A stretch of 64,000 nt of DNA, from the NCBI RefSeq assembly GCF_900044015.1, contig NZ_LN999835.1, positions 274,365-338,364 on the forward strand, read 5' to 3'. Each line of letters begins with the position of its first letter. Within the stretch, counting starts at the first letter, position 1. A program made the position numbers and the translations under genes. The notes below the pieces were generated by a model. The model made no database searches and was not told the DNA's origin. It saw nothing but the letters and a program-made list of their open reading frames with translations. Positions 17,238-38,404 of the stretch are shown here, piece by piece. The DNA comes from Candidatus Hoaglandella endobia (lineage in GTDB: Bacteria; Pseudomonadota; Gammaproteobacteria; Enterobacterales; Enterobacteriaceae).

Positions 17238-18239
17238 TTATAGCTGACGGTACTGCAATACCGCCTGATTATGGCTCACCAGATTGGTAGTAAATACATG
17301 GCCACCGCTCCCGTCGGCGACAAAATAAAGATAGTCACTTTTTTCAGGGTGAGCGGCAGCTATAAGCGATGCCTGGCCTGGCATCGCGATAGGCGTAGGG
17401 GGCAGCCCGCTAATGATATAGGTATTATACGGTGTCAGTTTAGTTAAATCATGTCTGGTGATAATGCCACGATAATCATCACCCAAGCCATAAATCACTG
17501 TTGGATCGGTCTGCAATTTCATCCCGATGCGAAGACGGTTGATAAACACCGAGGCTACCCGCGCCCGCTCCTTATTAATTCCGGTTTCTTTTTCTATGAT
17601 CGATGCCATGGTTAATAGCGCTTGCGGGTCTTTATACGGCAATCCATCGGCCCGTCCCTGCCAAATACTCGCTAGAATTTTAGCCATACACTGGCGCGTC
17701 CGTTTAAGAATCATACTATCCAGTGTATTAGCAGTATAGAGATAAGTATCGGGATAAAAGTACCCTTCTAATACGCTATCAGCTGGTACACCCAGTTTTG
17801 CTGCTAGCATTTGCTGCGTCACTCCCTGCAAATCATGCTGCAAATAAGGCGCATGCGATAGTACAGATAACCATTCCTTCAGCGTTGATCCCTCAATAAA
17901 ACGGATATAAAACTGCGTCTCTTTACCGCTTACTAGCAGCGCTAGTAAACCTCTAACAGTAAGCCCCGGCTTCAGTAGGTAAGTGCCAGCCTTGATTTTT
18001 ACCAGCTTTGGCTCAAACGCCATAAGCCACGGCAACCAGCCGGTATGCTGCATCAAATGCTGTTCATACAACAGCTGCTGTAAATCAGCACCGCCAGTAC
18101 CGACTGGTAAGGTAAAAATCGTGGCTTGCTTAAGATGAAGCGTTTCAGCTGCGAAATGCTTCATCTTAAGCAAGCATACCAGCACAGTTATTATCAGTGC
18201 TCCGATGAGTAATAAGATCAATAAGCGGTTTTTGTTCAT
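17238..18239 (-). CDS. mltG: Endolytic murein transglycosylase
   Basis: MltG (YceG) is an inner-membrane lytic transglycosylase that cuts nascent glycan strands and is thought to set their length. The 333-residue product (E. coli 340) has an N-terminal membrane anchor at about residues 7-25, then the periplasmic YceG domain with the catalytic glutamate in [10 protein letters not shown], and the conserved [19 protein letters not shown] block. Its first 40 codons contain a very long inverted repeat (18124-18175). In E. coli fabF and pabC lie upstream; here only their remnants remain and mltG is the first intact gene after acpP in that direction. Confidence 0.95.
18124..18175. repeat. 52-base near-perfect inverted repeat inside mltG
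   Basis: The 18 bases at 18124-18141 (GCTTGCTTAAGATGAAGC) are exactly reverse-complementary to 18158-18175. The 16-base centre can continue pairing (one G-U pair, then TTTC with GAAA), giving a stem of about 23 pairs around a 6-base loop AGCTGC. It falls in codons for the segment just after the membrane anchor of MltG ([19 protein letters not shown]), a poorly conserved part of the protein. Confidence 0.9.
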
Positions 18240-18273
18240 CTAACATGTCACTTTCCGGCTAATTAACATACCG

Positions 18274-18297
18274 AGCAACCGACCAAGCAACCGACCA
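18274..18297. repeat. 12-bp tandem duplication upstream of mltG
   Basis: AGCAACCGACCA occurs twice head to tail (18274-18285 and 18286-18297), 35 bases upstream of the mltG start. The copies are identical, which suggests a recent slippage event in the non-coding scar of pabC. Confidence 0.9.
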
Positions 18298-18344
18298 AGA
18301 TAAATAATTCTTATTTCACACTGTCAATCCTGCTAGCTAAGAAG

Positions 18345-18415
18345 CTAGCTATACAAAGTTCTTTCTTGATAAAGCCGTTGAGCCATTACTGCCATTAGGG
18401 CATCTGGTCCGCCGC
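18345..18415 (-). pseudogene. pabC: Remnant of pabC (aminodeoxychorismate lyase), C-terminal piece
   Basis: Reading the minus strand from 18401 gives ALMAVMAQRLYQERTLYS, which resembles the C-terminal NALMPVMPV...TLY region of PabC. It sits at the position pabC holds in E. coli, between fabF and mltG. Only this short piece is recognisable; the rest is gone. The identification rests on position plus a short match, so it is tentative. Confidence 0.4.
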
Positions 18416-18504
18416 TGGAACTAATTGTATATCTATCTATATCCTATATATCCTATCCTGACTTACGATCTTAGCATCGTAGTCTTAAAATAAGGGATGG
18501 CTTA

Positions 18505-18752
18505 AATAATGGCGCCTGCGGCGCCTAGACCGGTCATCGATTTTGTAGAACTGATCATGAACATCTACCTGCAGCCAGCCCTGCTTTATTTAACTAACTA
18601 CGATTTCACTGCCTGACTTTTTGATCTATTTTTAAATAAACCGGTAACCAGGGATATGCAGTAATCAAGCGCGCTGCCCGGAAATGAGCGTGCTCCACGT
18701 AGATTATCTGTTATTGCAGACAGGAGATAACCTGCCCAGGTAGACATGTTTT
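18505..18752 (-). pseudogene. fabF: Remnant of fabF (beta-ketoacyl-ACP synthase II)
   Basis: Two pieces of FabF survive in order downstream of acpP. Around 18680-18720 the minus strand reads GYLLSAITDN, then after a one-base frameshift TWSTLISGQRA, matching the FabF N-terminal [21 protein letters not shown]. At 18510-18552 it reads SSTKSMTGLGAAGA, matching the active-site histidine segment STKSMTGHLLGAAGA, with the His-Leu pair lost and a stop codon (TAA) two codons later. Roughly 300 codons between the pieces are deleted. The gene is therefore dead, and elongation must rely on another ketoacyl synthase outside this window. Confidence 0.8.
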
Positions 18753-18797
18753 CCCCTTATGAGGAGAAAGAAATAAAAGAAATAGTTGATATAGGCC

Positions 18798-18824
18798 TAA
18801 AACTTAGGCGGTCGATTGACCGCC
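18798..18824 (-). terminator. Probable terminator downstream of acpP
   Basis: On the minus strand GGCGGTC and GACCGCC form a 7-bp GC-rich stem with an AATC loop (18824 to 18807), followed by TAAGTTTTA. It begins 19 bases after the acpP stop. The U-tract is short, so termination may be partial. Confidence 0.55.
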
Positions 18825-18842
18825 AGAGATCTTTCCTTCCTA

Positions 18843-19079
18843 CTACTGTTGGCTTGCCTGAATAAAATCAATTGCTGCCTGAACAGTAGTTATTTTTTCA
18901 GCTTCTTCGTCAGGAATTTCGGTATCAAACTCTTCTTCCAGCGCCATTACCAGCTCAACGGTGTCAAGAGAGTCAGCACCTAGGTCATCAACAAAAGAAG
19001 CATTATTTACTACTTCTTCTTTCTTAACTCCAAGTTGTTCAGCGATAATTGCCTTCACACTTTCTTCGATAGTGCTCAT
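18843..19079 (-). CDS. acpP: Acyl carrier protein
   Basis: AcpP carries growing acyl chains on a 4'-phosphopantetheine arm during fatty-acid and lipid A synthesis. The 78-residue acidic product has the attachment site GADSLDTVE with Ser37 and is nearly identical to E. coli ACP. It follows fabG after 156 bases, as in E. coli, and is followed by a hairpin and then the fabF scar. ACP is also needed for lipoylation and as a donor in LPS acylation. Confidence 0.98.
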
Positions 19080-37903: not shown

Positions 37904-38404
37904 TAAGAAATTCCCATTTTGTAGTTTATGCAGTAGTTTATTTATCAGATCACCAAGATATTATAAAATTTTTGTCTTGAGATTTGGATATATAATTTAA
38001 TTACAGCGTCTAAAAAAAGAGAAATGATGGAGCTGAATTTCATTTTATTATAGAAGTACAGAAACCTGATTTCTTGATCAGGCTGAATTATATAATCAAT
38101 ATACATTGATACTACTGCTGCTGGTAGCTCATGTTATTTAATGGTTCATGAGACTTCTTCTGTAAGAAGTCTCATGAACACTAAAAGATATACTAATTTT
38201 AGTAAAATTTCAAATAGATCTCAAATAGAGATTCGTTACTTAACTTAATAGATAAGTAGTTTTTATACAGCAGATCCTCCATTCATCAATAGCTAAATTA
38301 TACATTTACGCGGCACGAATTAAAAATAATAAATAATTAAACATAATTAAGACCGGCGTTGAGCTATCAGCGATTACCTTAATTAAAGCAAGGTAATATT
38401 AAAA
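37904..38404. other. Gene-free interval between rpoH and mrcA
   Basis: This AT-rich 501-base interval has no reading frame I can assign. It contains one long perfect hairpin (38144-38179, listed separately) and should hold the mrcA promoter. It is at a junction not present in E. coli. Confidence 0.4.
38144..38179. repeat. Perfect 16-bp hairpin downstream of rpoH
   Basis: GTTCATGAGACTTCTT (38144-38159) pairs perfectly with AAGAAGTCTCATGAAC (38164-38179) around the loop CTGT. No T-run follows on either strand, so it is not a standard intrinsic terminator. It lies 226 bases beyond the rpoH stop and 241 bases before the mrcA start. Confidence 0.92.

Follow-up and report, generated by a model that had tools for sequence, protein, structure and literature searches.

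Template switching during replication is an established mechanism in E. coli (PMC7202029, PMC6357072) and in the coding genes of yeast (PMC8604942). In the E. coli lacZ quasipalindrome (QP) reporters, a short inverted repeat is altered when one of its arms serves as the template for rewriting the other, over a tract of approximately 18 bp (PMC7202029, PMC6357072), and in Saccharomyces cerevisiae the homogenisation of coding arms has been described, in which clusters of substitutions produce perfect inverted repeats together with replacements of neighbouring amino acids (PMC8604942). Perfect inverted repeats are also found in functional genes of a reduced genome in the mitochondria of Nematomorpha, where template switching has been proposed (PMC6649704), and a single switching event can create a perfect stem in RNA hairpins (PMC8794818).

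A long hairpin in the mltG gene, located in a 64,000-nucleotide stretch of DNA (the window), resembles these cases and, as judged from sequence comparison, very probably arose by quasipalindrome correction, a template switch in the course of replication. The E. coli reporters start from an existing quasipalindrome that carries a 4-bp insertion and score its reversion, whereas the change in mltG consists of many substitutions without an insertion or deletion and is deduced from comparison only; the yeast cases have strain-level ancestors, whereas mltG belongs to a reduced bacterial genome with distant relatives. The palindromes of Nematomorpha reach 284 bp and are numerous, while those of this genome measure 18-22 bp and are few, and the hairpins of PMC8794818 differ in lying within RNA genes under structural selection. 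The mltG hairpin is a known type of mutation in a reduced genome, and a good example of it rather than a new system.

The genome comprises 636,713 bases on 3 contigs and is reduced and allied to Sodalis-like bacteria; its size and gene content suggest a Sodalis-allied symbiont, probably of an insect and possibly of a mealybug. The mltG ORF is intact and still open despite the hairpin, and its product is 76% identical to the orthologue of G004, a relative with a free-living-sized genome. The nearest orthologues came from genomes of 3-5 Mb and from members of the same family whose genomes are likewise reduced, and an orthologue search gave no mltG match in many equally reduced relatives. Approximately 600 bases without a long ORF (18240-18850) separate mltG from an acpP-like ORF (about 18855-19079, minus strand); they contain two terminator-like sites and possibly remnants of the genes present at this locus in E. 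coli.

The hairpin begins approximately 64 nt inside the ORF, and its features are collected in Table 1. The two 18-nt arms are exact complements, as the preliminary description had stated, and the structure is real. Past the interruption at 18142/18157, pairing continues such that 18124-18146 and 18153-18175 form 22 of 23 possible Watson-Crick pairs around a 6-nt loop; the earlier figure of about 23 pairs holds for RNA of the plus strand, where 18142/18157 forms a G-U pair, but not for the real mRNA, which corresponds to the minus strand, has an A.C mismatch at this position and forms 22 pairs. When folded as RNA, as the preliminary description had proposed, the hairpin was approximately 7 standard deviations more stable than dinucleotide shuffles on both strands (z = -7.5 for plus, -7.0 for minus; 0 of 200 shuffles equally stable), with a stability of -41 kcal/mol on the mRNA, and single-stranded DNA of the region adopted the same fold.

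Table 1. The mltG gene and the parts of its hairpin (window positions; arms named in the mRNA sense).
Feature	Position	Strand	Description
mltG/yceG ORF	17238-18239	-	333 aa, endolytic murein transglycosylase family; PF02618, E 2.3e-77
5' arm	18158-18175	-	GCTTGCTTAAGATGAAGC; codons 22-28 (C L L K M K H); probably the template
Spacer	18142-18157	-	16 nt; one A.C mismatch, four more pairs (TTTC/GAAA), 6-nt loop
3' arm	18124-18141	-	GCTTCATCTTAAGCAAGC; codons 33-39 (T L H L K Q A); probably the derived arm, overwritten

When codons 15-48 were compared with the extant sequences of 134 aligned relatives, the longest hairpin arm among them was 10 bp, and most were 4-7 bp; the perfect inverted repeat of 18 bp has, in the relatives, either an imperfect counterpart or no counterpart. 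The alignment ran across the hairpin without gaps in the closer relatives. A shorter, imperfect stem was present at the same site in G004 and in G042, a second relative with a free-living-sized genome, and it is plausible that this stem represents a quasipalindrome substrate; no such stem folded at this site in L114-L116.

The preliminary description had suggested that related mltG genes might reveal which arm is ancestral, and in this comparison the start-proximal arm resembled the relatives while the distal arm was substituted. Against Sodalis-clade relatives the 5' arm showed 3-9 differences in 18 and the 3' arm 8-10. Compared with several of them, codon 35 is changed throughout; this codon is CAT here and ATC, CTC, CTA, ATT, CCT or AAC in those relatives, with three of three bases changed relative to L002, L117 and others. 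The residues of the distal arm are rare (H35 in 1% and A39 in 4% of the 134 relatives), and the alanine replaces a well-conserved E39. The asymmetry was clearest against L120 (3/18 differences in the 5' arm, 10/18 in the 3' arm) and L118 (4/18 and 9/18). Moreover, the 3' arm matched the reverse complement of the L120 5' arm at 15 of 18 positions versus 8 of 18 for the L120 3' arm itself, the corresponding values for L118 being 14/18 and 9/18, and the 5' arms of L120 and L118 were the best-matching 18-mers within their genes on either strand. The distal arm is better accounted for as a reverse complement of the proximal arm found in L120 and L118 than by descent from their distal arm. The contrast was weak against the closest large-genome relatives (7-8 versus 8-9 differences per 18), and the divergence of the 3' arm taken alone fell within the top 7-28% of windows among Sodalis-clade relatives, which is not extreme. 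In the mltG tree the sequence grouped with L118 and the large-genome clade, and L120, which also has AT-rich codons, lay outside, not on the nearest branch, so that the likeness to the L120 5' arm may be partly convergence. Taken together, the clear comparisons with L120 and L118 and the weak ones with large-genome relatives make copying of the 5' arm onto the 3' arm the likely, although not proven, direction.

The same signature was found in other genes of this genome, whose names, besides mltG, were read off sequence resemblance. Compared with four relatives, the clearest rewriting of one arm occurred in an mlaA-like gene with a 12-bp hairpin (L146:9373-9400); relative to L223 its 3' arm is identical (12/12) and its 5' arm retains 7 of 12 bases, yet that 5' arm agrees at 12 of 12 with the reverse complement of the L223 3' arm. 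The accompanying replacements in the 5' arm are V to A, P to L and A to L. The pattern in priA mirrors that of mlaA, with an 11/12 cross match versus 8/12 for the same arm in L231; the signature was less clear or symmetric in the hairpins of cpxA, amiB, fabF and rpoC. With these sister cases and the comparison of relatives, the templated inversion put forward in the preliminary description is well supported.

We propose that a short inverted match already existed and that, at this match or close to it, the growing strand turned back on itself and continued synthesis with its own arm as template. Such an event, presumably a single one, would have turned approximately 18 nt of codons 33-39, the second arm, into the precise reverse complement of codons 22-28 while changing neither length nor frame. 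The altered residues lie right behind an apparent single membrane anchor and outside the catalytic domain, so that fixation was probably by drift.

Independent substitutions, aided by AT drift and codon usage, might in principle have built the same symmetry, and the similar divergence of both arms from large-genome relatives, as well as the presence of some coding hairpins in G004, would fit such a history. In a coding background of 196 genes (228 kb), however, the mltG hairpin was the longest, and 20 synonymous-codon shuffles reached at most 12 bp against its 18 exact pairs, which rejects chance under codon constraint and bears out the earlier statement that the symmetry is unlikely to be fortuitous; we regard such a build-up as extremely unlikely. 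A broader sample of 304 kb, which combined the window with 12 stretches of 20 kb each and covered less than half of the genome, gave the same limit of 12 bp in 15 dinucleotide shuffles, and among its exact hairpins with loops of 3-20 the mltG hairpin ranked second to an intergenic one of 27 bp. A fold-back chimera arising in the library or assembly is very unlikely: the hairpin is known from the assembled sequence of one genome of the genus, but length and frame are preserved, the flanks continue normally, other genes of the genome carry the same directional pattern, and chimeras of this kind usually yield long inverted duplications. Insertion of a mobile palindromic element (a Rickettsia palindromic element, REP or MITE) has practically no probability. 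Elements of this kind can occur within genes (the Rickettsia elements are discussed in PMC6649704), but they add sequence and occur in multiple copies, whereas here the alignment over the hairpin is gap-free and the arm is single-copy; a search of the genome at up to 3 mismatches gave no further copy except one site with 3 mismatches.

The hairpin could instead be a selected mRNA element that regulates MltG as an RNase III or RNase E site, as an attenuator or by pausing translation once the membrane anchor has been made. The stability of the mRNA fold, its position just behind the apparent anchor, the presence of an RNase III gene in the genome and a U run (ATTTTTACC) approximately 6 nt past the stem agree with this reading. 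The U run, however, encodes a conserved I-F common to the relatives and so did not arise with the hairpin, and it does not follow the stem directly; a scan for intrinsic terminators gave no call on the stem. A conserved cis-regulatory RNA would be expected to recur in relatives, but none of the 134 has a hairpin above 10 bp here, and the distal arm was acquired at the expense of a well-conserved residue. Rfam gave no match at the gathering score, and the sub-threshold matches to miRNA models were taken as generic because such models fit any long hairpin. A regulatory role is accordingly unlikely, and the pause and the RNase E/III site suggested in the preliminary description found no positive support, although incidental pausing or, RNase III being encoded, accidental cleavage of the stem is possible.

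Hairpins are cut by SbcCD, and ExoVII trims away single-stranded ends. Model searches of the genome gave no match for SbcD or for XseA, the large subunit of ExoVII, both of which were found in G004, in G042 and in E. coli; their absence may be linked to the mltG event. In E. coli, loss of RecB increases template switching (PMC6357072). We consider it conceivable, but doubtful, that in symbionts without SbcCD and ExoVII the rate of template switching is raised, with perfect hairpins accumulating genome-wide and proteins being rewritten in multi-residue jumps; if true, proteins in degenerating genomes would change in a distinct way that can be measured. An intact ORF reading as MutS was also observed (L143:13289-15895), so that mismatch repair, in contrast to SbcD and XseA, may survive in part. 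One copying error can alter several neighbouring residues at once, and methods that proceed substitution by substitution would misread such events as positive selection or fast drift; the mltG hairpin offers a clean test site for the accumulation of these events in repair-poor symbionts.

Coding hairpins of at least 11 bp numbered 13 in the 228 kb sampled here, versus 0.5 expected from synonymous shuffles and 3 in 186 kb of the large-genome relative G004. The excess over G004 is only suggestive. Non-coding hairpins were far above shuffles in every genome compared, most strongly in G165, a 0.94-Mb genome in which the non-coding DNA of L178-L190 held 46 perfect hairpins of at least 14 bp versus 0.6 expected. 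Since the free-living-sized genome was among those with an excess, the process is a general one, and an increased rate in this genome is no more than suggested. The 27-bp intergenic hairpin, the longest in the sampled genome, is perfect and has a 3-nt loop (L146:8750-8806; G000:C1 about 258750-258806), and a perfect 16-bp hairpin with a 4-nt loop lies at 38144-38179 of the window, in an intergenic region with a minus-strand ORF on each side.
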